A stretch of DNA of 64,000 bases, taken from NCBI RefSeq assembly GCF_002095435.2, contig NZ_MJEJ02000052.1:62001-126000 (forward strand). The letters run 5' to 3'. How positions within the stretch are numbered: position 1 is the first letter of the stretch; the number at the start of each line of letters is the position of its first letter. Below, in pieces: positions 24,537-41,274 of this stretch. The notes beneath the pieces are model-generated. The model was not told the origin of the DNA. It saw only the letters and a program-made list of their open reading frames with translations, and did not search any database. The DNA is from Williamsia sp. 1138 (GTDB taxonomy: Bacteria; Actinomycetota; Actinomycetes; Mycobacteriales; Mycobacteriaceae). The position numbers and the translations under genes are program-made.

Positions 24537-25175
24537 TTGATACAGTCGCGCGAGATCGCCAAGGGGCAGGAGACGGTCATTCCGAGACTGGTCAATCATG
24601 ACGAGCGTCGCCACGCCATCATCGCGGCGGCCTGGCGAATCATCGCTGCGCGCGGAATCGACGGCATCAACATGCGCGACCTCGCGGCGGAGGCCGGCTA
24701 CACCAATGGCGCACTGAGCCACTACTTCGCGGGCAAGGACGAGATCTTGCGGACCTCGTTCGAACATGTGCTGGACACGACCAACGTCCGCATCGACCGC
24801 TCGGTGGGAAAAGCCACCGGAGTGAAGGCATTACGAAAGATGTGTGCCGAAATCATGCCGCTGACCGAGGAGGCACGGCTCGAAGCCCGTATCGCGGTGT
24901 CGTTGTGGCAACGCGCGTTGACGGACCGGGCCATGGAGTCGGTGAACAACGAAGCCGTCGCGGCATGGAAGTCACGATTGCGGCAGTACTGGCATGAGGC
25001 CATCGACAACGATGAACTTCCGCCGAACGACGTGGCGACCGGAGTCGAGGCGTTGATGACCATGATGATCGGTCTCCAGGTCACTGCGGCGCTGGATCCG
25101 GCCGCGACCTCGCGCCGTGCCCAGCTGGCGATGCTCGATGCGGTCTTGACGCCTGTGGAGAGCTCAGACCGCTGA
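24537..25175 (+). CDS. TetR-family regulator
   Basis: 212 residues. N-terminal TetR HTH (HAIIAAAWRIIAARGIDGINMRDLAAEAGYTNGALSHYF) and a BetI-like ligand domain. TTG 24537 is supported by AGGGAGG six bases upstream. It is convergent with, and overlaps by 12 bp, the amine oxidase gene, so it is a candidate repressor of the amine-oxidation operon. A perfect palindrome upstream of that operon (29546-29561) is a plausible operator. Confidence 0.85.
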   Translation: MIQSREIAKGQETVIPRLVNHDERRHAIIAAAWRIIAARGIDGINMRDLAAEAGYTNGALSHYFAGKDEILRTSFEHVLDTTNVRIDRSVGKATGVKALRKMCAEIMPLTEEARLEARIAVSLWQRALTDRAMESVNNEAVAAWKSRLRQYWHEAIDNDELPPNDVATGVEALMTMMIGLQVTAALDPAATSRRAQLAMLDAVLTPVESSDR

Positions 25176-26522
25176 CCTCGCGACGAACTCGTTGATCAAC
25201 GCGCGGGCGGTGACGATGCCTGACTCGATGGCGCCGTCGACAACGACACCGTTCCACCCGCGGGCGTAGTCGGCGCCGGCGAATCGGAGCCGCGAGTCGG
25301 TCGAGAGAAAGTTGCTCCATCCGTCGAAGAACTGACCAGACCTCAGGGTTGCCCAGGTCTGACCGGACCACTTGTCGGCGACCCAGTCGTGCCCGCCGCA
25401 GTCCAGCACTGTCAGATCATCACTCCAGACGTTGATCGCCTTCTGTGCCGAGGCCACATCCTGGAGGTCCATGGCGTTGTGGTCGGATCCGAAACCCACC
25501 AGGATGGTGGCGTCCTCATCGTCGAGGAAGTACTCGCTGCGCAGAAGCGAAATCGGGTTGTCTCCGGGGGCGCCTGCGATGATCGAATGTCGGCCGGACA
25601 CCTTCACCCAGATTTTGAAGCCGGTCGAGTTGGTGCCCTCTGAAATGACCTTCTGCTGACCGTCGGCCAACGGGGGTTCGAAATGGATCTGGGAGAGCGC
25701 GCCGATGGGTGCGGTGACGATGACTGCGTCTGCTGACACGATGGTGCCGTCGGCCAGCTCGACCTCGACCGCGGACGGCGAGTGGTTGATGCGGACCACC
25801 GGGGTGTCGAGTGAGATGTCGGCCCGTAGGTCTCCAGCGATCGACTCGTACAACCCGCGCATGCCGTCGACCAGCTTGAAGCGCAGCGTTTGTTCGTCCA
25901 TCAGCGAGCTCCGGTGATCGCTGAGGGCCGCCCAATGCTTCGCCATCAGTGGCGAGGCGGTGGCCGTCGACCCCTGGTAACCGGCGGACCAGTAGGAATC
26001 CGCAAGGTCGATGTCCATCTGGCTGAACTCACCCTCGCGCAGGCAGTCGAGCACGCTGCCGGTGTCCGCACGGAGAAATCGTTCGCGCAACGACGGATCG
26101 GTGTCGGCATCGCTCAGAAGGGCAAGTGGGTCATGCGGATTCGGGAAGAACTCACGCGAACCTTCGAAGATCTTCTCTTGCACCCGGGAGAGCGCGACGT
26201 CGAGATCGTGCTCGGTGCCACGATGTACGATCCCGCCGCTCACCCAATACGCGTCGTCGATGTCGGGGCTGGGGTAGATCTTCTGTCCGTAGCGCGTGAT
26301 CTCGGTCCAAACGAACGGTTGCATCCAGTGCACCCACGTCGCGCCCATCTCCAGCGTGTGTCCTCCCAGCCGTTCGTCGGTCCAGGCGCGTCCACCGATG
26401 CGGTCTCGGGCTTCGACGATCCGGACGTCGAAGCCGGCGAATTCGAGTTCTCGCGCTGCGATCAGACCGGAGAATCCCGCTCCGACGATGACCACTGACG
26501 GTCTGGTTGTGCTGTCGGACAT
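25164..26522 (-). CDS. Flavin-containing amine oxidase
   Basis: 452 residues. FAD site VVIVGAGFSGLIAAREL and ARDRIGGRAWTDE at the N-terminus, followed by GATWVHWMQPFVW. The C-terminal FAD motif is RFAGADYARGWNGVVVDGAIESG. The family (monoamine, putrescine and tyramine oxidases) oxidatively deaminates primary amines to aldehydes with release of ammonia and H2O2. ATG 26522 has AGGAGG five bases upstream, so the longer open frame is ignored. It is the last gene of an operon with an amino acid/amine permease and an aldehyde dehydrogenase, which fits uptake and two-step oxidation of an amine to an acid. An aromatic amine is plausible because iac genes follow. Confidence 0.88.
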   Translation of the reverse strand: MSDSTTRPSVVIVGAGFSGLIAARELEFAGFDVRIVEARDRIGGRAWTDERLGGHTLEMGATWVHWMQPFVWTEITRYGQKIYPSPDIDDAYWVSGGIVHRGTEHDLDVALSRVQEKIFEGSREFFPNPHDPLALLSDADTDPSLRERFLRADTGSVLDCLREGEFSQMDIDLADSYWSAGYQGSTATASPLMAKHWAALSDHRSSLMDEQTLRFKLVDGMRGLYESIAGDLRADISLDTPVVRINHSPSAVEVELADGTIVSADAVIVTAPIGALSQIHFEPPLADGQQKVISEGTNSTGFKIWVKVSGRHSIIAGAPGDNPISLLRSEYFLDDEDATILVGFGSDHNAMDLQDVASAQKAINVWSDDLTVLDCGGHDWVADKWSGQTWATLRSGQFFDGWSNFLSTDSRLRFAGADYARGWNGVVVDGAIESGIVTARALINEFVARSAV

Positions 26523-26578
26523 AAGTCCTCCTGTCGTTTGGGGTTTGCACGTGGTGGTGTGAAAGGCCGGCCGCCGGG

Positions 26579-28033
26579 TCAGGGATGTGGCGAACCCGAC
26601 GTCTGGTCCATGGCAGTACCGCGTCGTGAACGGACCACGAAATGTCCCACTGCCCAACCGATCACGAATGTGCACACGATGATTGCGAGAAAGATGTTCG
26701 CGAGAGTCCGGGAACCGCCGATGAGTGTCGTGAAGTTGGCGATGACCAGTGCCGTGATGCCGGCAAGGCCGAGGCCGCCGAGTATTGGCGCGATCTTGGT
26801 GTGCCACAGCCGAGTGTCGGCGCCGGAGCGGGTGAAGTAGACAACGATGGCGACACTGGTGAGCACCATCACGACCAGGATCGACACGGTCGCGACGCCC
26901 GCCATCCAGGTGAACAGTTCGAGCACGGGATCAGCGCCCGCCAGCGCGAAGATTCCGACCAGAACAAATGCGGTCACGGTCTGGAACAAGGAACCGAGAT
27001 GTGGTGAACCGTGGCGAGGGTGCACGGCCATCAGGGAGCGAGGAGCGAAACCACCGCGCGAGAGTACGTGGGTATATCGGGCAATGGCGTTGTGGAATGC
27101 GAGCAGAGCAGCGAACAGGCTCGTGACCAGCATGACCATCAAAACGTCGGAGGAGACGCCTCCGAGGTACTCGTCTGCGGCGATGAAGGTCAGGTCTGCG
27201 GTGTGCTCTGTTGCGATGGCTTGAACGTCGTCGGCCCCGAAGGCGAGAACGATTGCCCAGCTGGCAACCGCGTACAACACACCGATGATGATCACAGCGA
27301 CGTAGGTGGCGATCGGTACCGTTCGACGCGGGTTCTTCGTCTCCTCGCCGTAGATGGCCGTCGCTTCGAATCCGATGAACGATCCGACCGCGAACATCAG
27401 GGCGATGCCGGGCGAGCCCGACATGAAAGTCGATGGGCTGAAGGACGATACCTCGATGCCCTGCGCACCGCCCTGTCCGAGAATGGATACCGACAGGACC
27501 ACGATCAAGAGCATCTCTGCGACCAGCAGGACGCCGAGAACCTTCGCTCCCACGTTGATGCTGCGGTAGCCCAGCACGGCCACCAACGCCATCAACGCAA
27601 ATGCCCACACCCACCACGGCAGATCCGGTCCGCCGAACCGCACCACGACGCTACCCAGGGTCGAGGCGGCGAGACCGTAGATCGCGGCCTGCACCGTCGT
27701 GTAGGCGAGAAGTGCGAGTGATGCCGCACCGAGGCCGGGTCCCCTCCCCAATCCTTTGGTGACATAGGCATAGAACGCGCCTGACTCGGTGACATGACCA
27801 CTCATCGTCGCGTAGCCGACACTGAAGACCAGCAGGACGGCGGCGACGACTATGTAGGTCAGAGGCGCGCCCGCCCCGTTGCCCAGTGCGATCATCACCG
27901 GCAGTGAGCCGGCAACGGCGGTGAGAGGCGCGGCGGCCGCGATCACCAGGAAAACGATACCGGGGACACCGATGGATCCGCGGAGCCTGTGTTCGGATCC
28001 CGAAGTTGTTGAAGAGAATGTTTTTTCGACCAT
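26579..28033 (-). CDS. APC-family amino acid/amine permease
   Basis: 484 residues with about twelve membrane helices. The N-terminus GSIGVPGIVFLVIAAAAPLTAV and the later FIGFEATAIYGEETKNPRRTVP are typical of the APC superfamily. It lies 28 bp downstream of the aldehyde dehydrogenase gene and 56 bp upstream of the amine oxidase gene, so it is the probable importer of the amine substrate. Confidence 0.88.
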   Translation of the reverse strand: MVEKTFSSTTSGSEHRLRGSIGVPGIVFLVIAAAAPLTAVAGSLPVMIALGNGAGAPLTYIVVAAVLLVFSVGYATMSGHVTESGAFYAYVTKGLGRGPGLGAASLALLAYTTVQAAIYGLAASTLGSVVVRFGGPDLPWWVWAFALMALVAVLGYRSINVGAKVLGVLLVAEMLLIVVLSVSILGQGGAQGIEVSSFSPSTFMSGSPGIALMFAVGSFIGFEATAIYGEETKNPRRTVPIATYVAVIIIGVLYAVASWAIVLAFGADDVQAIATEHTADLTFIAADEYLGGVSSDVLMVMLVTSLFAALLAFHNAIARYTHVLSRGGFAPRSLMAVHPRHGSPHLGSLFQTVTAFVLVGIFALAGADPVLELFTWMAGVATVSILVVMVLTSVAIVVYFTRSGADTRLWHTKIAPILGGLGLAGITALVIANFTTLIGGSRTLANIFLAIIVCTFVIGWAVGHFVVRSRRGTAMDQTSGSPHP

Positions 28034-28060
28034 GATCGACCTTTTCTTTCCGTGCTCAGG

Positions 28061-29515
28061 TCACAGGATGACGGTGATCGTCTTGGGTTCTGTGTAGGAG
28101 AGGATTCCTTCGTATCCGAGTTCGCGACCCACTCCGCTGGCTTTGACGCCGCCCCACGGCAGTTGGGGGGCGAGCGGCGACCAGCCGTTGACGCCGATCG
28201 CACCGGCGTCGATGCGTGCCGAGATGCCATGCGCGCGGCTCACATCGGTGGTCCAGATCGTCGCCGACAATCCGTACTGGTTGTCGTTGGCCAGTTCGAC
28301 GGCCTCGTCGTCGGAATCGAACGGGATCACGACGCCGACAGGGCCGAAGATCTCCTCACGGGACACCACCATGTCGTTGCGACCGGCCAGGACAGTCGGA
28401 TTGACGAAGAAGCCGGGGCCGTCCGGCGCGTTTCCGCCCGCAATGACATCGGCGCCTTCATCGGCGCCCTTGCGCAGGTAGCCGACCACACGGTCCCGCT
28501 GCCGTGCGTTGACCAGCGGCCCCATGGTGGTGGCAGGGTCGAACGGGTCGCCCACGATCTGGGCCTCGGCGGCGGCCTTGAGCCCCTCGAGTACGGCCTC
28601 ATACACTTTGCGGTGGGCAAGGATTCGCGTACCCGCAGCGCATACCTCTCCCTGGTTGAAGAACAGTCCCATTGCCGAACCCTGGATCGCGGCGTCGAGG
28701 TCGGCATCGTCGAAGATGACCTGTGGCGCCTTGCCTCCCAGTTCGAGGGCGGTGCGCTTGAAGTTGACGGCGGAGTTGCGCACGATACTGCGCCCGACCT
28801 CGGTGGAACCGGTGAAGGAGATCTTGTGGATTCCGGGGTGCAAGGCCAGTGCCTCACCCGCAACCTTTCCCACTCCGGTGAGCACGTTCACCGTTCCCGG
28901 TGGAAAGCCGGCTTCATCGACGAGTTCGGCCAGCCGAAGGATCGACAACGAGGCGTCTTCCGAAGGTTTGACGATCACCGCATTGCCACACGCGAGCGCG
29001 GGGGCCAGCTTCCAGCCGAGAATCATCAGCGGCGCATTCCACGGCACAATGGCGGCCACCACGCCGATCGGATCGCGACGTGTGTAGGCGTGGGTGGGCA
29101 CCGGCCCACCGAGGTAACCGTCGTTGGCGATCAATTCGCCATTGATCTTGTCGGCCCAGCCCGCGTAGTACCGGAGCGTGCCGATGAGATTGGGAATCAT
29201 CATGGCCGCGCCCATGCCGACAGGGCGGCCCATGTCGATCGATTCCAGCGCCGCCAGCTGCTCCAGGTCGCGCTCGACGAGATCGGCCAGACGGTGAAGC
29301 AGAGCGCCCCGACGTGACGGGGCCAGCGCACCCCAGTCGCCGCGGTACGCCGACGTCGCCGCGGTGACCGCGGCGTCGACGTCGGCAGACCCGGCGGCTG
29401 CGAGTTCGGCCAACGGTTGGCCGGTTGCGGGATTGAGGGTGGTGAAGGTTTCGCCGGCGTCGCGCCATCCACCGCCGATGAACAGGCCGGTGTGCAAGTT
29501 CGAGATGTCGATCAT
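28061..29515 (-). CDS. NAD(P)-dependent aldehyde dehydrogenase
   Basis: 484 residues, full length for the family. Catalytic Glu in LELGGKAPQVIFDDADLD and catalytic Cys in FFNQGEVCAAGTRI; the cofactor-binding region carries IVPWNAPLMILGWKLAPALACG and SFTGSTEVGR. It should oxidise the aldehyde made by the amine oxidase to a carboxylate, for example indole-3-acetaldehyde to indole-3-acetate if tryptamine is the substrate. First gene of the operon; AGGAG precedes ATG 29515. Confidence 0.9.
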   Translation of the reverse strand: MIDISNLHTGLFIGGGWRDAGETFTTLNPATGQPLAELAAAGSADVDAAVTAATSAYRGDWGALAPSRRGALLHRLADLVERDLEQLAALESIDMGRPVGMGAAMMIPNLIGTLRYYAGWADKINGELIANDGYLGGPVPTHAYTRRDPIGVVAAIVPWNAPLMILGWKLAPALACGNAVIVKPSEDASLSILRLAELVDEAGFPPGTVNVLTGVGKVAGEALALHPGIHKISFTGSTEVGRSIVRNSAVNFKRTALELGGKAPQVIFDDADLDAAIQGSAMGLFFNQGEVCAAGTRILAHRKVYEAVLEGLKAAAEAQIVGDPFDPATTMGPLVNARQRDRVVGYLRKGADEGADVIAGGNAPDGPGFFVNPTVLAGRNDMVVSREEIFGPVGVVIPFDSDDEAVELANDNQYGLSATIWTTDVSRAHGISARIDAGAIGVNGWSPLAPQLPWGGVKASGVGRELGYEGILSYTEPKTITVIL

Positions 29516-29545
29516 GGTCCAGTTGCTCCTGAGGCTGAGCTGTGA

Positions 29546-29561
29546 TTCTACGTCTGTAGAA
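29546..29561. promoter_or_regulatory. Perfect 6-4-6 palindrome upstream of the amine operon
   Basis: TTCTACGTCTGTAGAA has perfect 6-bp arms around a 4-bp centre, 31 bp upstream of the aldehyde dehydrogenase start. Size and placement suit a TetR-type operator, and a TetR gene (24537) lies at the far end of the operon. Assignment is inference. Confidence 0.5.
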
Positions 29562-29688
29562 CCATCGGGTGTGGCGTACGTTACACCTCAACGGTTCGCG
29601 CCGGAAGATGCCCAGCGTGAAGAAACCTTTACCCGAGGACTGCCGTCAGAATGCCCTGTGCAAAAACAGGACTCGCGCGAGAATGTCG

Positions 29689-31230
29689 CTACTGTGCGCT
29701 GAGGGGGAGGGTGAACTCGAACACGGCCCCGCGTGGTGTGTTCTCCCGGGCGGTGAGCGTGCCGCCTTGGCGACTGATGATGCGATAACTCAATGCCAGG
29801 CCGATACCGTTGCCTGCGGCCTTGTCCGTGAACGCCCCGTAGAATACCTGGTCGGATGGCATGTGGGAGATACCTTTTCCGCAGTCGGTGACCGTGACGA
29901 CGCCGTATCCGCCGTCGTATCCGACCGAGACCGATACCGGCTGCCGGACATCAGGCTGCCCCGCCAATTCTTCGATGGCGTTGAAGCACAGATTCAGCAA
30001 CACCTGACCGGTGAGTACCTTCTCGCACACGACGGTGACGGGTTCGTCGGCAAGCACATACTCCACCGACACGCCGCTCTGCTGTGCGCGCAGATCGACG
30101 AAGTACGAACACTCTTCGACGATCTCGTTGAGGTCCGCGTGCTGCTGAGAATCCTCGAGTGTCGTCACGTACTCGCGCAAACTCCGCACGATGTGGTTGG
30201 CACGGTCCAATTGCCGGCGGGCGCTCTCCAGACCGCGCTGGATGTCGTCGTATCCGGCCGGCGGTTCGGTGGGTTGATCGGATGCCTGGGCCCGGTCTTG
30301 GGTTCCGGCGAGCCGGCTCTGCGTCCCGGCCAGGTAATTCGTGGCCGCCGCCAGCGGCTGGGCGAGTTCGTGAGCGATGGCCATTGCCATGTCACCCATC
30401 GCGTTGTACCGCGCCAGATAGTTCAGGTACTGCACATCGCGGCGATGCGCCTGCTCGGTCAGTACATGATCGGTGACGTCGTGACACAGCAGCAGTGACC
30501 CGCTGAGATCGTTTTCGATCTCGATGTGCTGGCAACTACCTGCATGCCAACGTACCCGGCCACTGGGCAGCTTGATCTCGTACCGCAGCCCTTCTGACCC
30601 GCCGTGTTCGGCAGTACGCTCGAGGGCCGCGACAACGTTGGAGCGAGACTGACCGGGCGTGCACAAATCCGTGAACCGGATGCCGGGCAGGCGATCGAGC
30701 GGTGAATCGAGCAGCGCGGCCGCCGCTTCGGTGGCGTATGTGATGCGGCCGGTCTCGTCGAGGACCAGAATCCCCTCACTCATGTTGTCCAGGAACGCCG
30801 ACAGCCGCGCCTCGGTGCGGTTGAGGTCTGCCTCGGTACGCAGGAGGTCCCGCCGGACCAGGGCCTCGCGTTCGATGTCGCGGAACTGCACCATGACCAC
30901 CTGGCGCGCGGCCAGCTCGACCCTGATCGCGATGGCCTCGGTGAGGATGACCCGGCCACTCTTGGCCCGATATGCCCACTCGGTCACCGCAACACCATTG
31001 TCCACCGCGTTCTGCAACCACTGCCGCCCCACGGACCTGCGGTATCGCTGCTCCTGGGCGCTCATCTGGTGCGCTTTGAGGGGGCGCAGCTCCTCGACGC
31101 TGAACTCCAGGAGATCTGCCGCAGCCTGATTTGCCCAGAGGATGTCTTTCGACGCGGCGTCATGAATCAGGACGCAGTACCGCAGTGCCTGAACCAGCTG
31201 CTCGTAGTCGTCGTCGGCGAGATAGGGCAC
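29689..31230 (-). CDS. FixL-like PAS sensor histidine kinase, candidate iac regulator
   Basis: 513 residues, no membrane segments. PAS domain 1 spans about residues 5-125 (DILWANQAAADLLEFSVEEL) and PAS 2 about 145-265 (GILVLDETGRITYATEAAAALL). The FixL-type His box is MAIAHELAQPLAAATNYLAG, followed by an ATPase domain with DCGKGIS and AGNGIGLALS. Cytosolic PAS kinases of this type sense small ligands or redox state. GTG 31230 is fixed by AAGGAGG six bases upstream. It is divergent from iacA, and the only FixJ-like regulator nearby lies beyond iacE, so the two probably form one system controlling the iac genes. Confidence 0.88.
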   Translation of the reverse strand: MPYLADDDYEQLVQALRYCVLIHDAASKDILWANQAAADLLEFSVEELRPLKAHQMSAQEQRYRRSVGRQWLQNAVDNGVAVTEWAYRAKSGRVILTEAIAIRVELAARQVVMVQFRDIEREALVRRDLLRTEADLNRTEARLSAFLDNMSEGILVLDETGRITYATEAAAALLDSPLDRLPGIRFTDLCTPGQSRSNVVAALERTAEHGGSEGLRYEIKLPSGRVRWHAGSCQHIEIENDLSGSLLLCHDVTDHVLTEQAHRRDVQYLNYLARYNAMGDMAMAIAHELAQPLAAATNYLAGTQSRLAGTQDRAQASDQPTEPPAGYDDIQRGLESARRQLDRANHIVRSLREYVTTLEDSQQHADLNEIVEECSYFVDLRAQQSGVSVEYVLADEPVTVVCEKVLTGQVLLNLCFNAIEELAGQPDVRQPVSVSVGYDGGYGVVTVTDCGKGISHMPSDQVFYGAFTDKAAGNGIGLALSYRIISRQGGTLTARENTPRGAVFEFTLPLSAQ

Positions 31231-31279
31231 GGACGCCTCCTTCTGACTGAAGACTGCACCGCCTGGGTGCGGGCCGCAA

Positions 31280-31295
31280 GTAAGGAATTGCTTAG
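31280..31295 (+). promoter_or_regulatory. Candidate response-regulator box in the iacA promoter
   Basis: GTAAGGAATTGCTTAG is an imperfect 6-4-6 palindrome, similar in layout to TodT/StyR boxes (ATAAAC-N4-GTTTAT) bound by FixJ-family regulators. A related sequence lies upstream of iacC (38091). It sits between the kinase and iacA, which are divergent. Confidence 0.45.
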
Positions 31296-31385
31296 TCGCG
31301 ACGCGGGAAGTCCCGATACCGGCGGCCCGCCCACAGTCCATAGCGTCATCGTCGAAGCTTTCGATGAAATGCGAATGGAGACGTG

Positions 31386-32555
31386 ATGACGACGGAGAGC
31401 ATGACCAGGGTGTCCGCCGAACCAGCGGGGCCGGCTCGCGCAGCGGCGTTCGAAGACGCCCTGGACGTGCTCCGGGAACGCCGAGACGAGTTCAGTGCCC
31501 AACGCTTCGTTCCACGCGACTTCGTTGCACTTCTCAAGCGGGCCGGCATGTACCGGGCATCGACGCCCGCCGCATTCGGTGGCGAGCCCATGGCCCCCTC
31601 TGACTTCATGAAGCTGGTCGAGCGGTTGTCTGCTGTCGACCCGGCCACCGGATGGGTTGCGAGTTTCGGCTCGTCGCTGGTCTATTTCGCGGCATTGCCG
31701 GTCGCATCGCAACAGCAGATCTACGCGGACGGCCCCGATGTCGCCTACGCCGGTGGTCTGTTTCCCATGCAGGAGGCCCAGCGTGTCGCCGGTGGATATT
31801 TGTGCACCGGCACTTGGCAATTCGCCAGTGGATGCCGCGGCGCCGACATCATCGGAATAGGGTTGGTCGGCGGGCCGGAGACGAACGGTAAGCCCCTCAC
31901 CGCGCTGGTGAATCCCGACGACGTCGAGATCGTCGACAACTGGGGTGTCGCCGGGATGAAGGCGACGGGATCACATGCCGTGCGTGCCGATCGGCTGTTC
32001 GTGCCGGAGGAGATGACGTTCGTCCGAGGCGGCGAGCCTCAGATCGACGAGCCGTTGAATCGGTACCCGGCGCTGTCGTATGCCGCTCAGGTGTTGGCGG
32101 TGGTGACCCTCGGTGCAGCTCGTGGCGCCCTCGACCACGTGATCGAGGTCGGCGCGGCGAAGGCATCGATCACCGGGGGCGCGGCCAAGGGCAACCGGCC
32201 TGCCTACAAGACGGGGCTGGCGCAGGCGGAGGCGGAGTTGCGTGCGGCGAGGGCGTTCTTCTATCAGACCACTGACGACGTGTGGGCCAAAGCCTTTGAC
32301 GGCGAGGCGATCACCACTGAAGACCAAGCGATACTCCGCCTCAGCGCCACGCATGCGGCCCACGCCGGTCGCTCCGTGGTGCTCAGGGCCTTCGATCTCG
32401 CCGGAACCGGCGCAATCTACGAGAATCACCCGTTGCAACGGTACGTCCAGGACGCTCTGGTGCCCGCCCAGCACGCGATGTTGCAGACCCATACCTACGA
32501 GGCGGTCGGAGCGCTGCTGCTCGGCCTCGACGCCGGCATCCCGAGCTTTCCCTGA
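31386..32555 (+). CDS. iacA: IacA-like flavin-dependent monooxygenase (acyl-CoA dehydrogenase fold)
   Basis: 389 residues with an acyl-CoA dehydrogenase/HsaA-type fold (YRASTPAAFGGEPMAP, DPATGWVASFGSSLVYFAAL, WQFASGCRGADIIGIG). In iac clusters IacA oxygenates the indole ring of indole-3-acetate using reduced flavin supplied by IacG, the first committed step, acting with the reductase IacE. ATG 31386 has GGAG five bases upstream; a GTG at 31383 is also open. The identification rests on this fold together with adjacent iacB and iacE and all the other iac genes within 10 kb. Confidence 0.85.
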   Translation: MTTESMTRVSAEPAGPARAAAFEDALDVLRERRDEFSAQRFVPRDFVALLKRAGMYRASTPAAFGGEPMAPSDFMKLVERLSAVDPATGWVASFGSSLVYFAALPVASQQQIYADGPDVAYAGGLFPMQEAQRVAGGYLCTGTWQFASGCRGADIIGIGLVGGPETNGKPLTALVNPDDVEIVDNWGVAGMKATGSHAVRADRLFVPEEMTFVRGGEPQIDEPLNRYPALSYAAQVLAVVTLGAARGALDHVIEVGAAKASITGGAAKGNRPAYKTGLAQAEAELRAARAFFYQTTDDVWAKAFDGEAITTEDQAILRLSATHAAHAGRSVVLRAFDLAGTGAIYENHPLQRYVQDALVPAQHAMLQTHTYEAVGALLLGLDAGIPSFP

Positions 32556-32597
32556 GCTGAAAAATCAAGACCTGCAACTACTCACGAGGAGAATCAT

Positions 32598-32960
32598 ATG
32601 GCCAACGAACCGCTGCGCACGCTGTTCTGCATCGGCAACAATCAGAACTTCTTCGACCTCCCCAAGGCTGACATCGGTCCCGTCTGGGTGGGGATCCAAG
32701 AGATGCTGTCGAACCTCAAGAACATGGACGGTGTCGACGTGATCGGGACGTTCGATGACGACGCCCACATGGTCGGGCCGTCCGACGGCTGGCCGTGGAC
32801 GTGCTACGTCCTCGCCGACGTCCGAGATCAGCCGACTGTGAAAGCGGCGTGCAATCTTCTGCGAACAACGATGATCGGTGAGTTCGCCCTGTGGAAGTAC
32901 TTCAAGATGGAAGCCCGCATGGGCCGCGAGCTCGCGATCCGCGACGACGTCAAACTCTGA
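32598..32960 (+). CDS. iacB: IacB-like small protein
   Basis: 120 residues, no signal or membrane segment, with NQNFFDLPKADIGPVW, FDDDAHMVGPSDGWPWTCYVLAD and YFKMEARMGRELAIR. It fits the small IacB proteins that follow iacA in indole-3-acetate clusters; their exact catalytic role is unsettled. AGGAG lies upstream of ATG 32598. The stop shares a base with the start of iacE (TGATG), so the two are translationally coupled. Confidence 0.82.
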   Translation: MANEPLRTLFCIGNNQNFFDLPKADIGPVWVGIQEMLSNLKNMDGVDVIGTFDDDAHMVGPSDGWPWTCYVLADVRDQPTVKAACNLLRTTMIGEFALWKYFKMEARMGRELAIRDDVKL

Positions 32961-33718
32961 TGGCGAACGCGCAGCAGAGTCAGGGCGTGGCAGTGGTCAC
33001 CGGTGCGGCAGGCGGGATGGGCAGCCATATCGCGCGGGCATTGCACGCCGACGGAGCGCACGTGCTGCTGGCCGATATCGCACTCGACGCCGCGCAGGAG
33101 CTGGCATCCGAGCTGTCGCCCGACGGATCAAGCGCGCGGGCGGTTGCGCTCGACGTGGCACACCGCGAGCCCTTTGTGCAGGCCCTGGACGTCTGCCGAC
33201 AGACCTGGGGAAGACCGACGATCCTGGTCAACAACGCGGCGGTGACCCAGGGCGCCGAGCTGATGGACATCGGTGAAGAGGATTTCACCCGGGTCCTCAA
33301 CACGAACGTGAACAGCATCTTCTTCGGTTGTCAGGTCTTCGGGGCGGCGATGGCCGACGCAGGCTACGGCCGCATCATCAACATGGCATCCCTTGCGGGC
33401 CAAAACGGCGGGACGGCCACCGGCGGCCACTACGCGTCCTCGAAGGGTGCGATCCTCACGGCGACAAAGGTCTTCGCTCGCGAGCTCGCTCCGCATGGGG
33501 TCACCGTCAACGCCATCGCCCCCGGCCCTCACGACCTCCCGGTCGTCCACGCGACCGTGCCGCCCGAGAAACTCGGTGCCGTGGTCGCGAACATTCCGGT
33601 GGGCACGCTCGGGGATCCGTCATTCATCGGGGATGTGGTGTCTCTACTGGCTTCGCCGAAGGCCGGGTTCGTCACCGGAGCCTGCTGGGACGTCAACGGC
33701 GGTCTGTACCTCCGCTGA
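32960..33718 (+). CDS. iacE: IacE-like short-chain dehydrogenase/reductase
   Basis: 252 residues. Classical SDR: cofactor motif VVTGAAGGMGSHIARAL, LVNNAAV, catalytic Ser in INMASLAGQNGG and Tyr-Lys in HYASSKGAIL. In iac pathways the SDR IacE acts with IacA on the oxidised indole acetate intermediate. ATG 32960 overlaps the iacB stop. Convergent with the FixJ-like regulator, 11 bp away. Confidence 0.85.
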   Translation: MANAQQSQGVAVVTGAAGGMGSHIARALHADGAHVLLADIALDAAQELASELSPDGSSARAVALDVAHREPFVQALDVCRQTWGRPTILVNNAAVTQGAELMDIGEEDFTRVLNTNVNSIFFGCQVFGAAMADAGYGRIINMASLAGQNGGTATGGHYASSKGAILTATKVFARELAPHGVTVNAIAPGPHDLPVVHATVPPEKLGAVVANIPVGTLGDPSFIGDVVSLLASPKAGFVTGACWDVNGGLYLR

Positions 33719-33729
33719 CCCCGCCGGCA

Positions 33730-34386
33730 TCAGCCCTCTGAATCGGCGACGGGCACCTCGGCATCAAACCGGAGGATGTCGCGGACCAGGGTGCTGATGC
33801 TGTCGGCGTCGGTCTTGCTCTTGATCCGCGCACGGTGAACGTCGACCGTCTTGACACTCATGCCGAGCCTGCGCGCGATGTTCTGGCTGGGCATGCCCTC
33901 GACCACCAGGGCGAGGATCTGTCGTTCCCGTGGAGTCAGCGACGAGACCTTGGACTGCACGGCCTGTTTGAGGCGATACTGACGGAATCGGATCTCTGCC
34001 TGCTCGACGCCGCTCTGTACCGCATCCAGAAGGCGCTGCGGTTCATACGGCTTCTCCAGGAAGTCGAGCGCGCCCGCCTGTAGCGCCGACACCGACATCC
34101 GGATGTCCCCGTGCGCGGATACGAAGATGATCCCGACAAACGGCGCAAATGTGTTGAGGCGCTCCTGCAACCGGGTGCCGCTGAGATGCGGCATTCGCAC
34201 ATCCAGGACCAGACACGCGGCATGGTCACCCTGATACATCTCGAGGAACTCGTCCGCGCTGTGGCAGATCCGTGGTCTGATACCGATGCTCTCGAGAAGC
34301 CACTCCACCGATTCGCAGACCTCGGGGTCGTCGTCGATGACGTACACCGTGGCCGGTGCACTGTCCTCACTCAGCTGTTCGGACAT
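33730..34386 (-). CDS. FixJ-like response regulator, candidate iac regulator
   Basis: 218 residues. Receiver domain with acidic pair YVIDDDPEVC, phospho-acceptor Asp in CLVLDVRMPHLSG and Lys in FLEKPYEPQRLL. LuxR-type HTH: LTPRERQILALVVEGMPSQNIARRLGMSVKTVDVHRARI. ATG 34386 has GAGGAG five bases upstream. It lies between iacE and iacH, on the same strand as the kinase at 29689 but separated from it by iacABE. FixJ-family regulators such as TodT and StyR activate aromatic degradation operons. Confidence 0.88.
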   Translation of the reverse strand: MSEQLSEDSAPATVYVIDDDPEVCESVEWLLESIGIRPRICHSADEFLEMYQGDHAACLVLDVRMPHLSGTRLQERLNTFAPFVGIIFVSAHGDIRMSVSALQAGALDFLEKPYEPQRLLDAVQSGVEQAEIRFRQYRLKQAVQSKVSSLTPRERQILALVVEGMPSQNIARRLGMSVKTVDVHRARIKSKTDADSISTLVRDILRFDAEVPVADSEG

Positions 34387-34454
34387 GTCTCCTCGCGTAT
34401 CGTGGCCCCCGATCACGAAGAGTCTACGCGCCGAGGGGAGTACACAGCCGGACT

Positions 34455-35783
34455 TCAGTTCACTCGCCCTACGACCGGGCCCTTGACCGGCGGCATCGCA
34501 CGCAGCGTGGATTCGAGTTTCTTCGCGACGGCGAACAGGGTGCTTTCACATCCGGGTTGTCCGATGAGCTGCAGACCCAGTGGTAGTCCATCGACATCTT
34601 CGGCGCCGGGGACCACCACGACGGGTGCGCCGAGCAATTGCCACGGCCTGCTCAGGACAGGTGATCCGGTAGCGGACAGGCCCGCGGGCGCCGGGCCCAG
34701 TGCGGCGGGGCCGACCACCACGGCCTCACCGGCAAGCAACGCCTCGAAGTGTGCACGCCGCTGATCCCGCCGCTCCAATGCCGCCGCTCTGTCGCCCGCC
34801 GACACCTCAGAACCTTCAAGCACCAGCTCACGCAACGGCGGACTCAACCGTTCCCCGTGCTCAGCGACGACATCCCGCAGTGTCTCTGCTGCCTCGTGAG
34901 CCATGACCGTGCGGTGGTCGTCGGCGAGGGCGCGAATGTCCTGGTCCCAGTGCAGGCCGGCGCTGCTGATGCCGCGATCGGCGAGGATGCCGGGGACCGC
35001 ATCGAGAAGCGCAACCATCGCCGGATCCAGGCTGTCCAGCTCACTACCCGACCACACCAACACCTTCGGTGTGATCGGGGCAGACTCGGCAGACCGGCCG
35101 GTGAACGCGTTGAAGACGTACTCGAGATCTGCGATGGTGCGAGTCAGCACACCCAATGAATCGAGTGACTCGCTGAGTCCACAGACGCCGTCCAGGCTCA
35201 CAGTTCCCTGGGCCAGAACCATTCCAGCGGTCCCGCAGAACGATGCCGGCCGGGTCAGAGAGCCTGCCGTCTGAGTCCCCAGGGCCACAGCAATGGTCCC
35301 CGCACCCACCGCTGCCGCCGACCCGCTGGATGAGCCTCCCGGAGTGCGGTCTGGTGCCTTGGGGTTTCGGGTCGGACCGGGGGAGAAGTAGCCGAATTCG
35401 GTGGTGACGGTCTTTCCTTGGACCACGGCCCCGAGATCACGAAAACGGGCGACGCATGCGGCGTCCCGGGTGGCCGGGGCCTGCTCGGTGACCGATGATC
35501 CTGCCCGGGTCGGCAGGCCCGCGACGTCGATCAGATCCTTGACGGCGAGCGAGATCCCCCGAAGCGGTGCATCGGTGACCTGGTGGTCCTGACTGCGCGC
35601 CTCGTCGATCACGCGAGGGTTCAACTCGACCCATGCCGACAACATGCTCTCCGCGGCGTCGATGTCACCACGGACTCCACGGGTGAGTCGTACCGCCGTG
35701 TCCGCTCCGGAGTTGATGGCGGCTACTTGGTCCGGAATCGGACGGTGCCACCCTGCGGATCCCGCGAGGTCTCTTTCGATCAT
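34455..35783 (-). CDS. iacH: IacH-like amidase
   Basis: About 442 residues, amidase-signature family. Catalytic Lys in ISLAVKDLIDVAGLPTRAGS, then the Gly/Ser-rich GGSSSGSAAAVGAG and the nucleophile region GTQTAGSLTRPASFCG. In iac clusters IacH is an amidase thought to act on an amide-containing late intermediate. I use ATG 35783 (MIERDLAGSAG); the open frame runs further to 35930 but would overlap the divergent iacG gene. No strong ribosome site is visible. Confidence 0.85.
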   Translation of the reverse strand: MIERDLAGSAGWHRPIPDQVAAINSGADTAVRLTRGVRGDIDAAESMLSAWVELNPRVIDEARSQDHQVTDAPLRGISLAVKDLIDVAGLPTRAGSSVTEQAPATRDAACVARFRDLGAVVQGKTVTTEFGYFSPGPTRNPKAPDRTPGGSSSGSAAAVGAGTIAVALGTQTAGSLTRPASFCGTAGMVLAQGTVSLDGVCGLSESLDSLGVLTRTIADLEYVFNAFTGRSAESAPITPKVLVWSGSELDSLDPAMVALLDAVPGILADRGISSAGLHWDQDIRALADDHRTVMAHEAAETLRDVVAEHGERLSPPLRELVLEGSEVSAGDRAAALERRDQRRAHFEALLAGEAVVVGPAALGPAPAGLSATGSPVLSRPWQLLGAPVVVVPGAEDVDGLPLGLQLIGQPGCESTLFAVAKKLESTLRAMPPVKGPVVGRVN

Positions 35784-35818
35784 GGATCGAGTGTGCGGCT
35801 TCTCGCTCGCGAACGACA

Positions 35819-35834
35819 GTAAAGATTTCTCTGC
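35819..35834. promoter_or_regulatory. Weak candidate regulator box between iacH and iacG
   Basis: GTAAAGATTTCTCTGC shares the GTAA(A/G)GA start of the boxes at 31280 and 38091 but is less palindromic. A perfect CGAAATAGTTTCG palindrome lies close by at about 35853-35865. Both fall in the 87-bp divergent gap between iacH and iacG, which must hold two promoters. Confidence 0.25.
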
Positions 35835-35870
35835 TACCGCCGTAGGACGATACGAAATAGTTTCGCAGAC

Positions 35871-37061
35871 ATGGCTATCACCGCAACTGCCCAGTTCGAA
35901 GCATCCGTATTTCGGGAAGTGATGGGCCACTATCCTACGGGCGTCGTGGTGGTCACCGGTCGCGACCGCGATGGCGACGTGTTGGCGATGGTCGTCGGCA
36001 CGTTCAATTCGGTGTCGCTGGACCCGCCGCTGGTGTCGTTCATGCCGATGAAGACGTCCCGGACCTTCGCGAAGATGTTGGAGTGTGACTCACTGTGCAT
36101 CAACATCCTCGGTGGTGAGCAAGAGGACGTCGTGCTGACCATCGCGCAGCGCTGGGAGAACAAGCTCGACGGTATCGAATGGTTCGCCTCACCCAGCGGT
36201 AATCCGGTGCTGGCGGACTCGGTCGCGTGGATCGACAGCACGATCTACAACACTGTGGAGGCCGGCGACCACTGGATCGTGCTCTGCGCGGTCACGGACC
36301 TGGCCGTCACGAACCCGGTCTCGCCCCTCATCTTCTTCCAAGGTGGCTACGGCAGCTTCGTCACCACCTCGTTGATGGCACGGATGGATCACGAGATACT
36401 CCCTGCCATCCATGCTGCGCATGGTGCTCGCAGCAGAATCGAGGAGTTGGCAAATGCGATCGGTTGTGAGGTAACAGTTTTCACCGCCGTCAGTTGCGAT
36501 GAGATGGCGACTGTGTTGTCCGCGACATCGCCCGGAGTCGCCAGGGAAGGCGGGCTGGCGTTGCGGGTGCCGATGGTGCCGCCGATCGGGGACTCGTATG
36601 TGTTCGCCCGCTCGAGTGACGAGCAGAAGCGGTGGATCGGCAGGCTTCGCGGCGCGTCGGATGAGGTAAAAGCAGTGCATCTCGAGCGTCTGGATTTCGT
36701 CCGAGAACACGGGTACCTGATCGCCTTCCTGCCACCGCAGACCGCCGATGCCTATGCTGAGATGCGTGACGCGGCTGAGCGTTACGGACGTGGTCGACTG
36801 ACTCCAGCCCAGGAACGAAGCATCCGGGAGTCGATCGGACGGTCTCCTGTCGACTATCGGGTCCAGCACGTCGAGGACTCGTCCACCTATGACGTGGGAT
36901 CGCTGGTGCTGCCCGTCCGAGACCCGGGTGGTGGCTACTCGTTGACGTTGCGGTTGGCGCAGCTGCCTCCGCAGGCATCGGGTGCGACGATCCGCGGATG
37001 GCTCCGCCAGGCGCGTGAGGTCGTCGCCGCCCTCGAGAACAACCGAGAGGTGCAGCCGTGA
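35871..37061 (+). CDS. iacG: IacG-like flavin reductase fused to an IclR-like effector domain
   Basis: 396 residues, more than twice the usual flavin reductase length. Residues 1-165 are the FMN-binding reductase (MGHYPTGVVVVTGRD, GTFNSVSLDPPLVSF, ILGGEQEDVVL), which should supply reduced flavin to IacA. Residues from about 175 onward match the IclR effector-binding pattern without any HTH: RIEELANAIGCEVTVFTAVS, a middle ASDEVKAVHLERLDFVREHG, and LVLPVRDPGGGYSLTLRL. Some two-component monooxygenase reductases, such as the HpaH (C1) reductase of Acinetobacter with its MarR-like C-terminal domain, are stimulated by substrate, and a similar control is plausible here. Its stop overlaps iacI by 4 bp. 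Confidence 0.82.
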   Translation: MAITATAQFEASVFREVMGHYPTGVVVVTGRDRDGDVLAMVVGTFNSVSLDPPLVSFMPMKTSRTFAKMLECDSLCINILGGEQEDVVLTIAQRWENKLDGIEWFASPSGNPVLADSVAWIDSTIYNTVEAGDHWIVLCAVTDLAVTNPVSPLIFFQGGYGSFVTTSLMARMDHEILPAIHAAHGARSRIEELANAIGCEVTVFTAVSCDEMATVLSATSPGVAREGGLALRVPMVPPIGDSYVFARSSDEQKRWIGRLRGASDEVKAVHLERLDFVREHGYLIAFLPPQTADAYAEMRDAAERYGRGRLTPAQERSIRESIGRSPVDYRVQHVEDSSTYDVGSLVLPVRDPGGGYSLTLRLAQLPPQASGATIRGWLRQAREVVAALENNREVQP

Positions 37062-37621
37062 CCGAGGCCATGGAAGACACCGTTGCAGGGTTGGTTGCCC
37101 GAATCGAGACGTTGGAGGCCGAGGCCGACATCCGTCGGCTGCAGGCCCGCTATATGTTCCTCTGCGACACACCGTGTCCCGAATTCGGCGTACGCGACGA
37201 TCAGCACCGGATCGACCTGATCGTCGGGCTCTACTCGGACGACGCGGTGTGGGAGGGCGTCGGCGAATACTACGACGGTCAGTTCGGGCGTGCGCAGGGT
37301 CATGCGGAGATCCGGGCGCACTTCGAGCGGTTCTGGGGGACCAAGCGTGATCCGGAGCTGTTGCTCAACGCCCACTATCTGACGTCTGAGCAGATCCACG
37401 TGGCGGGCTCCGGCGCCTCAGGGCAGTGGATTCACATGCAGCCCTGGCTCTTTGCGGACGGTAGTGGACTCTTGCGGTCGAGTCGCCTGAACAATGAGTT
37501 CCGAAAGGTCGACGGGGTCTGGAAGATCACCCGGACGAGAACCGAGAATGTGTTCATAGCCCCTCTGCCCACGCGTTTCGCAAGCGACCACCCGCGCGCA
37601 TCGGTACTCATGCGGCCGTAG
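37058..37621 (+). CDS. iacI: IacI-like NTF2-fold protein
   Basis: 187 residues with the SnoaL/NTF2-like fold (RLQARYMFLCDTPCPEF, DDAVWEGVGEYYDGQ, GHAEIRAHFERFWG, NEFRKVDGVWKITRTR). An IacI-type protein of this fold occurs in iac clusters; its catalytic role is not settled. It is co-translated with iacG (ATGA overlap). Confidence 0.8.
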   Translation: MTEAMEDTVAGLVARIETLEAEADIRRLQARYMFLCDTPCPEFGVRDDQHRIDLIVGLYSDDAVWEGVGEYYDGQFGRAQGHAEIRAHFERFWGTKRDPELLLNAHYLTSEQIHVAGSGASGQWIHMQPWLFADGSGLLRSSRLNNEFRKVDGVWKITRTRTENVFIAPLPTRFASDHPRASVLMRP

Positions 37622-37665
37622 TCCGGCGCGTGCAGTCAACAAGCCGACCCGCGCGCCACGGTCGG

Positions 37666-37980
37666 TCAGTCGTCGCTCCAAGCGGCATCTGCCTCCCAGT
37701 AGTCCATACCAGCGGCGCTGACCCGGTGCCGCCACGGCGACGTTCGGCGAAGTGTCGGCTCGATGCGTGCAGTGGCCTCGTCGGCCACCTCCGGGCCGTC
37801 ACCGGTGACGGTCCAGTGCACCCAGTTCACTTCGTTGCCCGCACTGTCGTGGGTGAACAGGTCCACATGCCGCCACCCGTAGCCGAAGGTGTCGGTGTAG
37901 CAGGTCAGTGTCATCCGCCGGTCATCGGTGACCGAGGCGCTTGAATCAGGGGTCATTTCGAATCCGTATGTCGGTGGCAT
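37666..37980 (-). CDS. Small hypothetical protein inside the iac region
   Basis: 104 residues (or 96 from ATG 37956), encoded on the strand opposite to the flanking iacI and iacC. It is rich in aromatic residues and Asp (YTDTFGYGWRHVDLFTHDSAG, NWVHWTVTGDGPE, DYWEADAAWSDD), with no signal, membrane segment or family that I recognise. The composition looks like a real soluble beta-rich protein rather than a shadow frame, and no overlapping gene competes for the space. No convincing ribosome site. Possibly an accessory iac protein. Confidence 0.5.
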   Translation of the reverse strand: MPPTYGFEMTPDSSASVTDDRRMTLTCYTDTFGYGWRHVDLFTHDSAGNEVNWVHWTVTGDGPEVADEATARIEPTLRRTSPWRHRVSAAGMDYWEADAAWSDD

Positions 37981-38277: not shown

Positions 38278-39576
38278 ATGACCGTCGACTTCAACGCAGA
38301 GAAGGTCTACGACCTCCCACCCTCCGACCTGGTGCGCCCCGATCGCGTTGCGGGGCGGATGTACACAGACCCTGACATCTTCGAACTCGAGATGTCGCGC
38401 ATCTTCGAGCGCGCCTGGGTCTGGGTTGCTCACGAGAGTGAGTTGCCGAAGGCCGGCAGTTTCAAGTCGACACACGTCGGGCACCAGCCGGTGATCGTCA
38501 CACGTGATCGCAAAGGCAACATCAACACTCTGCTGAACAGGTGCCGGCACCGTGGGGCGAGCGTGTGCGAGCAGCGCGCCGGTAACGCCAATGGGTTCAC
38601 GTGCCCGTACCACGCGTGGTCATACGGTCTCGACGGCACCTTGCGAGGGATCCCGTACCCCGATGGCTACGAGGATGTCATGGGCAAAGAGGGAATGGGC
38701 CTGAAGAAGGCGCGCACCGAATCATACGGCGGCATGATCTTTGCGACGTTCAACCCTGACGCTGAGCCACTCGACGAGTTCTTGGGCGACACCAAACTCT
38801 GGATCGATCGATTCTTCAAGCAGGGCGGCGGATATCCCGTCAAAGTGCTCGGCACGCACCGGTTCAAGTTCCGCGGCAACTGGAAGATCCAGCTGGAGAA
38901 CACCACTGACGGCTACCACTTCCCGATCGTGCACCGGTCCTGGATGGCGTCGGTGGACGCCGAGACCTCCGACATGATGAGTTTCATGACAGATCCGTCC
39001 GCGATCACCCATGACCTCGGTAACGGACACTCGGTGATGCAGATGGTCCCCGAACATTCAGACCTCGATGCCGACGACGGCAGCGAGCCGCTGCAGCCAC
39101 GCTTCGACGGTCTGGTCGCGGAACTGACCGAGGCCGGGTTGGATGAGCCCGCCGTCCGCAAGCTGGTACGCGCTGTCCATGGCACGGGGTTCAATCTCAA
39201 CCTGTTCCCGAACGTGTCGATGTCCATCTCGTTCTTCCGGGTACTGCGTCCGATCTCGGTCAACGAGACGTGGATCGAGCACGTTGCCCTGGGGTCGGAC
39301 GGACCGGAGGACATCGTCGGACCGGTCAATCGGGAACGGTTGCGGGCTCACGAACACTTCCAGGGCCCCTTCGGTTTCGGCACACCTGATGATGCCGAGG
39401 GCTGGGACCGCGTGCAGAGGGGCGCCGTGGGTGGACCTGAACTGCCCATCATGGTCAATCGTGGCCTGGGCCGTGAGGCTCGCTCGGCGCAGGGATGGCC
39501 CACTTCTCACGTCACAGATGAAACGGGTATGCGCGCTGCATACGGAAAATGGAAGGAGATGATGAGCGATGACTGA
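38278..39576 (+). CDS. iacC: IacC-like Rieske oxygenase large subunit
   Basis: 432 residues. Rieske [2Fe-2S] site CRHRGASVC followed by CPYHAW (C-x-H-x17-C-x2-H) at residues 87-110, and the mononuclear iron site DGYHFPIVH. This is the alpha subunit of a ring-hydroxylating dioxygenase. In the iac pathway IacC/IacD with reductase IacF acts on the oxidised indole intermediate on the way to catechol. GGAG lies about ten bases before ATG 38278. The 3' end overlaps iacD by 8 bp. Confidence 0.88.
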   Translation: MTVDFNAEKVYDLPPSDLVRPDRVAGRMYTDPDIFELEMSRIFERAWVWVAHESELPKAGSFKSTHVGHQPVIVTRDRKGNINTLLNRCRHRGASVCEQRAGNANGFTCPYHAWSYGLDGTLRGIPYPDGYEDVMGKEGMGLKKARTESYGGMIFATFNPDAEPLDEFLGDTKLWIDRFFKQGGGYPVKVLGTHRFKFRGNWKIQLENTTDGYHFPIVHRSWMASVDAETSDMMSFMTDPSAITHDLGNGHSVMQMVPEHSDLDADDGSEPLQPRFDGLVAELTEAGLDEPAVRKLVRAVHGTGFNLNLFPNVSMSISFFRVLRPISVNETWIEHVALGSDGPEDIVGPVNRERLRAHEHFQGPFGFGTPDDAEGWDRVQRGAVGGPELPIMVNRGLGREARSAQGWPTSHVTDETGMRAAYGKWKEMMSDD

Positions 39577-40153
39577 CACCGTCCAGGCTCGCAAACCGAA
39601 ACCAGGTGCATGGGCGGCGGAAGCCGTTGCCCGTGAGCTGCCGGTGTCGTTTGTACCCACCACCGACACCCGGGTGGTGCGAGCCATCGATCTCATCAGT
39701 CGTGAGGCCGAGTTGCTCGACAACAAAGACTACGAAGCATGGCAGCAGCTCTACTCCGAAGACGCAAAGTACATCATCCCGATCGATCCTGATTGCGAAG
39801 ACTTCGCCAACACCCTGAACATGGTGTACGACGACGCTCACATGCGTGGTCTGCGGGTCACCCGGATGACCGAGGGATATGCGATCGCCGCGGTCGACTC
39901 AGCAAAGACGCTCCGAACCATCGGACGGTTCGTCCCTGCCGACGTGGTCGATCGTGACCACGGTGCCACTGTCAAGATCCGCGCGGCACAGACGCTGATC
40001 GCCTACAAGCGCGGACACCACGATATCTGGGCTGCAAACGTCGACTACACGATTGATCTGGGCGCCACTGCTGCCGACGACCGCCTATCCCTCAAAGTCA
40101 TTCGACTCATCGACGGCCGGGACGAGGTACCTGCGGCGGGGTTCCTGCTGTGA
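39569..40153 (+). CDS. iacD: IacD-like Rieske oxygenase small subunit
   Basis: 194 residues with the ring-hydroxylating beta-subunit fold (LISREAELLDNKDYEAWQQL, YIIPIDPDCEDF, HMRGLRVTRMTEGYA, YTIDLG). It forms the oxygenase with IacC. ATG 39569 lies inside the end of iacC, and its stop overlaps the GTG of iacF by 4 bp, so all three genes are coupled. Confidence 0.87.
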   Translation: MTDTVQARKPKPGAWAAEAVARELPVSFVPTTDTRVVRAIDLISREAELLDNKDYEAWQQLYSEDAKYIIPIDPDCEDFANTLNMVYDDAHMRGLRVTRMTEGYAIAAVDSAKTLRTIGRFVPADVVDRDHGATVKIRAAQTLIAYKRGHHDIWAANVDYTIDLGATAADDRLSLKVIRLIDGRDEVPAAGFLL

Positions 40154-41103
40154 CGCTCCAGGTGCAGGTTGCCGAGGTCGTCTCCGAGACACCGGCTATA
40201 CGTACGCTAAGGCTGGTGCGTGAAGACGGCGCGCAGTTCACCCCCTATGATGCGGGTGCACACATCGACGTCGTCGGCCCGACCGGTGTGCTCCGGCAAT
40301 ACTCGCTGTGTAGTCCACCCCGCGACCCGTCGTCCCTCCTGATCGCGGTGAAACGCGAGGAGGACTCGCGTGGAGGTTCAGCTGCGCTGCACGAGGTGCA
40401 ACCGGGCGACCGTGTGACGATCTCGCCACCGCGTAACCTCCTGACCCTCGCCGAGGATGCCGACCGGCACGTGCTGATCGCAGGTGGTATCGGAGTGACC
40501 CCGCTGCTCAGCTTGGCGTATGAAATGAGCTCGCGAGCAGTCGACTTCGAACTCCACTACTTCGTGCGTAGTCGGGACCAGGCGGCCTTCATCGACCTGT
40601 TGGAGAACCGCGTGGAGTTCGCTGACCGGGTTCATCTCTATTTCGGTACTCCACGTAGCGATCTGGCCGGCATCCTCGAGGAGCTGGCGGGCCGGGCAGA
40701 CAAAGCCTCCCATGTCTACACCTGTGGGCCGGTCGGATTCATGGACCTGGTGGCGGCCACCTTCGCACCCGCGGTGGGTGCCGATCAGGTCCACAGCGAG
40801 CATTTTGTCGCAACGACCGTCGACACCAGTGCGGACTCCGCCTTCGAGATCGAACTCGACACCGGCGAGGAGTTCACTGTCCCGGCCGACCAGTCGATCC
40901 TGGAAGTCCTGGAAGAGAACGGGATCGAGGTCTTCAAGTCCTGCGAGGAAGGGATCTGCGGGTCGTGCATCTCGGGTGTGCTGGAAGGCACACCGGACCA
41001 CCGCGACAACTGCCTGTCGAACGCTGACAAAGCGGCCGGCAACCAGATGGCTCTATGCGTGAGCCGGGCACAGTCATCCAAGCTGGTCATCGAACTGTAC
41101 TGA
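40150..41103 (+). CDS. iacF: IacF-like oxygenase reductase (FMN, plant-type 2Fe-2S)
   Basis: 317 residues, VanB-type. Flavin-binding RQYSLCSPPRD near residue 50, nucleotide-binding LIAGGIGVTPLLSLA and TCGPVGFMDLV, then a C-terminal ferredoxin domain with CEEGICGSCISGV and a fourth Cys in RDNCLS. It passes electrons from NAD(P)H to the IacC/IacD Rieske oxygenase. GTG 40150 overlaps the iacD stop. It ends just before a good terminator. Confidence 0.88.
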   Translation: MTLQVQVAEVVSETPAIRTLRLVREDGAQFTPYDAGAHIDVVGPTGVLRQYSLCSPPRDPSSLLIAVKREEDSRGGSAALHEVQPGDRVTISPPRNLLTLAEDADRHVLIAGGIGVTPLLSLAYEMSSRAVDFELHYFVRSRDQAAFIDLLENRVEFADRVHLYFGTPRSDLAGILEELAGRADKASHVYTCGPVGFMDLVAATFAPAVGADQVHSEHFVATTVDTSADSAFEIELDTGEEFTVPADQSILEVLEENGIEVFKSCEEGICGSCISGVLEGTPDHRDNCLSNADKAAGNQMALCVSRAQSSKLVIELY

Positions 41104-41119
41104 GCGCCAACGCCGGATC

Positions 41120-41160
41120 ACGGGCATCGACATCGCTGAAGCGGTGGCGGTGCCCGTTTT
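41120..41160 (+). terminator. Intrinsic terminator after iacCDF
   Basis: ACGGGCA at 41120-41126 pairs with TGCCCGT at 41151-41157 and is followed by TTTTCTT, the expected layout of a Rho-independent terminator 17 bp after the iacF stop. Confidence 0.65.
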
Positions 41161-41207
41161 CTTGTAGGCCCCTGTCGGCACAAGTGCGCACATGAGCACA
41201 GCAGAAA

Positions 41208-41252: not shown

Positions 41253-41274
41253 CGGGTATTCGTCAGTTGCTGCC

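Follow-up and report, generated by a model that had tools for sequence, protein, structure and literature searches.

The described systems closest to the locus reported here are the iac loci of Pseudomonas putida 1290, Paraburkholderia phytofirmans PsJN and Caballeronia glathei, which carry nine catabolic genes and whose products IacA-I are known for the degradation of indole-3-acetate (IAA). IacA of C. glathei oxidises IAA, not tryptamine, and indole-3-acetaldehyde supports growth of P. putida 1290 (PMC7225977), so that an amine oxidase combined with an aldehyde dehydrogenase is the expected bridge for growth on tryptamine. For PsJN and some Pseudomonas, a two-component regulator of iac has been reported (PMC11630574, PMC9613470). 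At the level of single enzymes, the nearest points of comparison are the flavin monoamine oxidase (MAO) of Corynebacterium ammoniagenes and the phenylacetaldehyde dehydrogenase StyD of Rhodococcus. Here we describe a 64,000-nucleotide stretch of Williamsia sp. 1138 (the window) that, like those loci, holds nine catabolic iac homologs, and that differs from them by an adjacent set of amine oxidase, permease and aldehyde dehydrogenase genes with its own TetR-type regulator, which would act as a feeder.

Organization of the locus

The amine-related genes are all intact open reading frames:

24537..25175, plus strand, TetR/BetI-type repressor gene (TetR_N, TetR_C_6); the true start is perhaps later than the TTG
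25164..26522, minus strand, flavin monoamine oxidase (AO), ATG at 26522, 452 aa (Pfam Amino_oxidase, 213 bits)
26579..28033, minus strand, APC-family permease (Pfam AA_permease_2, 102 bits; AA_permease)
28061..29515, minus strand, aldehyde dehydrogenase (ALDH), operon gene 1 (Pfam Aldedh, 546 bits)
29546..29561, no strand, palindromic candidate operator TTCTACNNNNGTAGAA / TTCTACGTCTGTAGAA, a dyad 31 bp upstream of the ALDH start
29689..31341, minus strand, PAS-domain sensor histidine kinase, iac-linked (PAS, HATPase_c)

On the minus strand the transcription order is ALDH, APC permease, AO, with gaps of 27 bp (ALDH/permease) and 56 bp (permease/AO), while the TetR gene is convergent with AO and overlaps its 3' end by 12 bp. 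The kinase gene lies upstream of the operon on the same strand, in tandem orientation. No terminator-like site was seen in a scan of the intergenic region between them, and neither a sigma-70-like promoter nor a terminator was seen upstream of ALDH. A preliminary description of this DNA had named an ALDH, a permease and an amine oxidase, and the reading frames together with Pfam and NCBIfam matches bear out all three. Its single operon spanning 24537-29515 has to be narrowed to the three genes, since 24537 is the start of the convergent TetR gene. Likewise, the 173 bp that it gave between the end of the operon and the kinase gene are correct as a distance (kinase stop at 29689, ALDH start at 29515), and belong to the operon's 5' end. 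It also read the gene order as uptake, deamination and aldehyde oxidation: these three functions are indeed predicted, the order of transcription being the one given above.

The neighbouring iac locus comprises the following genes:

31383..32555, plus strand, iacA homolog, acyl-CoA dehydrogenase-fold flavin monooxygenase (HsaA-type family match, Acyl-CoA_dh_2)
32598..32960, plus strand, iacB-position small protein, 120 aa (same-position ortholog in locus L076; its family, c6, occurs in 11 iac loci)
32891..33718, plus strand, iacE homolog (SDR), true start probably after 32960 (adh_short families)
33730..34416, minus strand, FixJ/LuxR-type response regulator (Response_reg and GerE)
34455..35930, minus strand, iacH homolog (Amidase)
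35871..37061, plus strand, iacG homolog, flavin reductase (Flavin_Reduct; StyB/HpaC-type matches)
37058..37621, plus strand, iacI homolog, without NCBIfam match
38278..39576, plus strand, iacC homolog, Rieske dioxygenase alpha (60-62% identity to Burkholderiales sequences)
39569..40153, plus strand, iacD homolog, dioxygenase beta (adjacent to iacC)
40150..41103, plus strand, iacF homolog, ferredoxin reductase

Homologs of all nine catabolic genes iacA-I thus lie beside the module with a FixL/FixJ-type pair, the names resting on family and gene content instead of a one-by-one alignment with a characterised iac locus. A 74% ortholog of iacI on a plasmid of Rhodococcus YL-1 overlaps a gene annotated as a nuclear transport factor 2 family protein. 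A MarR-type IacR is missing from the genes that we examined in 24537-42822, where the kinase/response-regulator pair is found instead and probably runs the iac genes. We rejected a skatole (ska) cluster identity for these genes, as SkaA belongs to the Group E flavoprotein monooxygenases (PMC13101512) and the first oxygenase of the window has an acyl-CoA dehydrogenase fold. The Caballeronia SBC1 locus was discarded as an iac reference, the genes round its iacA match not being an iac cluster. Next to iac, as in L009 and L076, lies a cation/acetate-type (SSF) symporter (41275-42822), possibly an arylacetate (IAA) importer; a small minus-strand ORF upstream of it (approximately 42819-43253) may be a DUF485 partner. 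Downstream of the iac region, 44288-46297 encodes an OPT-family oligopeptide transporter (TIGR00733, 807 bits).

The predicted functions of the module

In phmmer searches AO scores 518 bits against the C. ammoniagenes MAO, followed by 205 bits for the next family and only 74 bits for putrescine oxidase. Its AlphaFold2 model (mean pLDDT 91.8) matches the structures of the C. ammoniagenes enzyme with Z-scores of 55-56 and a whole-chain identity of 54-55% over 437 residues, compared to Z 36 and 24% for putrescine oxidase (2yg5). AO is a full-length, same-fold homologue of the C. ammoniagenes MAO-type flavin monoamine oxidases, and its domain is Amino_oxidase (PF01593), not PF01179, which sets it apart from the copper amine oxidases. 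Residues G14, G16 and G19 of the FAD dinucleotide motif, and likewise K303 and W390, are invariant across 36 relatives; by analogy with MAO, we take K303 and W390 to be the active-site lysine and tryptophan. A strong grouping with putrescine oxidases, the outcome that the preliminary description had held against its own proposal, did not occur in either sequence or structure. On both comparisons we rejected a putrescine oxidase identity. A tryptophan monooxygenase identity also seems unlikely, as none is found among the best PDB matches of AO, and as it would leave the ALDH unexplained.

According to their PDB titles, the C. ammoniagenes MAO entries include a complex with tryptamine (8eeh), next to complexes with tyramine, dopamine, octopamine, norepinephrine and cadaverine. 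Presumably, the source paper of 8EEF-8EEO is Muellers et al. 2023 (cited in PMC12062150). Since this enzyme binds several amines, AO may be promiscuous as well; tryptamine is the best-supported single substrate, and AO is therefore best described as a predicted tryptamine oxidase. Unlike the C. ammoniagenes MAO, AO belongs to a separate lineage that we found only in genomes with iac, and the genome of a Corynebacterium relative that is 97% identical to the former (L061) has no iacA or iacC matches.

For ALDH, the best NCBIfam model is that of StyD (NF045736), matched over its full length; its 717.6 bits fall short of the 800-bit equivalog cut-off. We predict ALDH to be an indole-3-acetaldehyde dehydrogenase, and the APC permease, judged by its family and its neighbours, to be an aromatic amine importer. 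The permease is kept beside AO in loci of Gordonia, Williamsia, Nocardioides and Tsukamurella, and TetR orthologs adjoin the module in relatives, often divergent from the permease.

Distribution of the module

Relatives of AO form two groups by identity, an upper group at 71-87% and a lower group at 51-68%. We surveyed 251 sampled genomes of the family with a completeness of at least 90%. Upper-group orthologs occur in 11 of these and iacC in 27, with all 11 carriers among the 27 (P = 2.6e-12, or 2.8e-7 without the window's genus, treating genomes as independent and ignoring phylogeny). Orthologs of ALDH (76% or more identity) are present in exactly those 11 genomes. Lower-group oxidases were found in two genomes of the survey, both lacking iacC. 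Of the nine genomes of the genus, five have module and iac together and four have neither (5/5 versus 0/4). The module is absent from 16 of the 27 iac genomes, and is therefore optional to the pathway.

Most upper-group loci have iacA, iacC or iacE within approximately 10 kb, whereas none of the lower-group loci do. At least six distinct gene arrangements show this linkage, spread over Gordonia, Mycolicibacterium/Mycobacterium, Rhodococcus (plasmid pYLL1 among them), Tsukamurella and Williamsia, and where upper-group loci have no iac nearby, two Nocardioides among them, the genomes hold iac elsewhere. In the tree, all 22 sampled oxidases of the clade come from iac genomes and lie on one side of a branch whose support, at 92/92, is not decisive, and the iac label changes once on the tree compared to 17 times in shuffles. 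Seven tested genomes with lower-group oxidases gave no match to iacA or iacC, and the sister of the iac-genome clade is a Nocardia panacis sequence, whose genome likewise lacks iac. Positions that set the iac clade apart include S205, G317, G320, S346 and G376 of AO. In two same-genus genomes the module lies approximately 245 kb (G003) and 225 kb (G008) from iacC, and in a third it is on another contig; the distances in G003 and G008 show that the association is not only one of physical linkage. One record in the comparison, L014, is titled Kitasatospora arboriphila; its match places equal those of the same-genus genome G006, and the public name may be wrong.

A candidate operator

Upstream of ALDH, the perfect dyad TTCTAC-N4-GTAGAA (29546-29561) is the sole exact match in the 6.08-Mb genome, compared to a chance expectation of 0.06 by base composition. 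Same-genus carriers have one or two exact dyads each, located at the module in four of five, and none was found in the four same-genus non-carriers. G003, G006 and G008 each have two, ahead of ALDH and of the APC permease, with one further exact copy in G006, and in G002 the sole exact dyad is on a different contig from the module. Most other carriers have near-copies, mostly with one mismatch, 24-115 bp upstream of the APC permease gene and divergent TetR gene, or of AO, and 18 sites yield the consensus aTGgTTCTACanncGTaGAatcAn. These near-copies before APC, AO and TetR genes make it probable that a TetR operator belongs to the module itself, and the TetR encoded next to it is the most obvious candidate for binding the dyad. 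Phylogenetic profiles, recurring linkage and the shared dyad support that AO, ALDH and permease are tied to one another and to iac.

Possible replacement modules and other entries

Beside the iac kinase, Rhodococcus-like iac genomes without AO have genes for a copper amine oxidase, a permease of the APC family (66%), a TetR and an ALDH (approximately 62%) (copper oxidases at L073:7499-9457 and L074:6559-8517), and the copper oxidase is at most approximately 15 kb from iacC in each of the six genomes of this kind in that genus. It is related to the phenylethylamine oxidase of Arthrobacter globiformis and non-homologous to AO, whose place it may take. While this module fits amine oxidation that feeds iac, the set is also found close to paa where iac is absent (L078; G151), and paaA lies near iac in several of those Rhodococcus-like genomes; these contexts weaken the support that it lends. 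A copper amine oxidase is also encoded in the window's own genome, on a separate contig (G000:C28), and it could act on other amines.

In three loci a GMC oxidoreductase gene adjoins ALDH and the iac kinase (L009:27849-29345, L015:4654-6183, L059:4672-6264), which suggests a second entry into iac, perhaps for tryptophol. In L009 (15561-17912), and at approximately 7.4-9.9 kb of L025 and L030, AO is separated from an APC permease of another kind by genes for two luciferase-like flavin oxidoreductases and a TIGR04076-family protein.

Fate of the product and alternative explanations

If the module were instead a general one for aromatic monoamines such as phenylethylamine, tyramine or dopamine-like compounds, its arylacetates would pass to the paa or homoprotocatechuate pathways, and its place next to iac would reflect mere clustering of catabolic genes. 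The broad range of amines bound by the C. ammoniagenes MAO, the resemblance of ALDH to StyD, and a distant AO relative located 7 kb from paaA in G024 all fit this explanation. Against it, PaaA is absent from the window's own genome and from three same-genus carriers, and with one family model no HpaD scores over the cut-off in any of these four, so that we rejected phenylacetate, and 4-hydroxyphenylacetate via HpaD, as sinks. As a control, PaaA occurs in 49 of the 251 genomes and in only four of the 11 AO carriers, compared to 11 of 11 for iacC, and the module follows iac even where the two are unlinked (G003, G008). We therefore regard a general monoamine module as unlikely, though the most serious of the alternatives.

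Amine oxidases release NH4+, and AO might thus serve to scavenge nitrogen, its carbon product being incidental; neither a dedicated ALDH that is confined to the same 11 genomes nor the strict co-occurrence of AO with iac would be expected in that case, which makes this quite improbable. Slightly less probable still is an indolic amine other than tryptamine, e.g. serotonin or N-methyltryptamine, since despite the several amines taken by the C. ammoniagenes MAO pocket and the two LLM flavin oxidoreductase genes preceding AO in Rhodococcus relatives, IacA-I are known for IAA and there is no sign of a substituted indole.

For the tryptamine route there is a candidate outlet: the contig carries an actinobacterial catA-type catechol 1,2-dioxygenase gene 27.5 kb after the window ends, and all 11 AO carriers have a catechol 1,2-dioxygenase. 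This is consistent with the predicted degradation of IAA to catechol by iac.

Discussion

Taken as a whole, a peripheral tryptamine module that feeds iac is in our judgement the probable, and the best, explanation of this locus. The APC permease would import an aromatic monoamine, most likely tryptamine, which the flavin oxidase would deaminate to indole-3-acetaldehyde, NH4+ and H2O2. ALDH would then oxidise the aldehyde to IAA, and IacA-I would convert this to catechol for ortho cleavage, while the module's own TetR would repress it at the TTCTACN4GTAGAA dyad. The flux would thereby run from amine to catechol. That the amine operon would feed the iac pathway, as the preliminary description had proposed, is well supported by the genome comparisons, with tryptamine as the inferred substrate.

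In a wider sense, iac in Mycobacteriales and Nocardioides may stand at the centre of an indole regulon built from modules, a generalization for which we consider the case evenly balanced. Here, the TetR/dyad tryptamine module of flavin oxidase, permease and ALDH would sometimes give way to a copper amine oxidase, or be accompanied by an alcohol-oxidising GMC/ADH enzyme with an ALDH, leading from tryptamine, and perhaps tryptophol, through auxin to catechol. In the literature searched, from which subscription journals were mostly absent, no iac-linked tryptamine module or regulon is described, and the iac papers name no such feeder. The chemistry and both enzyme families are known; an iac-dependent, separately regulated module appears to be undescribed in that literature.

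Substrate, regulator and operator of the module can each be tested, and its TetR is a candidate sensor that would respond to tryptamine. If our explanation is correct, soil- and plant-associated actinobacteria would grow on tryptamine, an indole amine of plants and microbes, by way of auxin. Such bacteria would then shift auxin from both sides, as IAA would be made from tryptamine and IAA would be destroyed.
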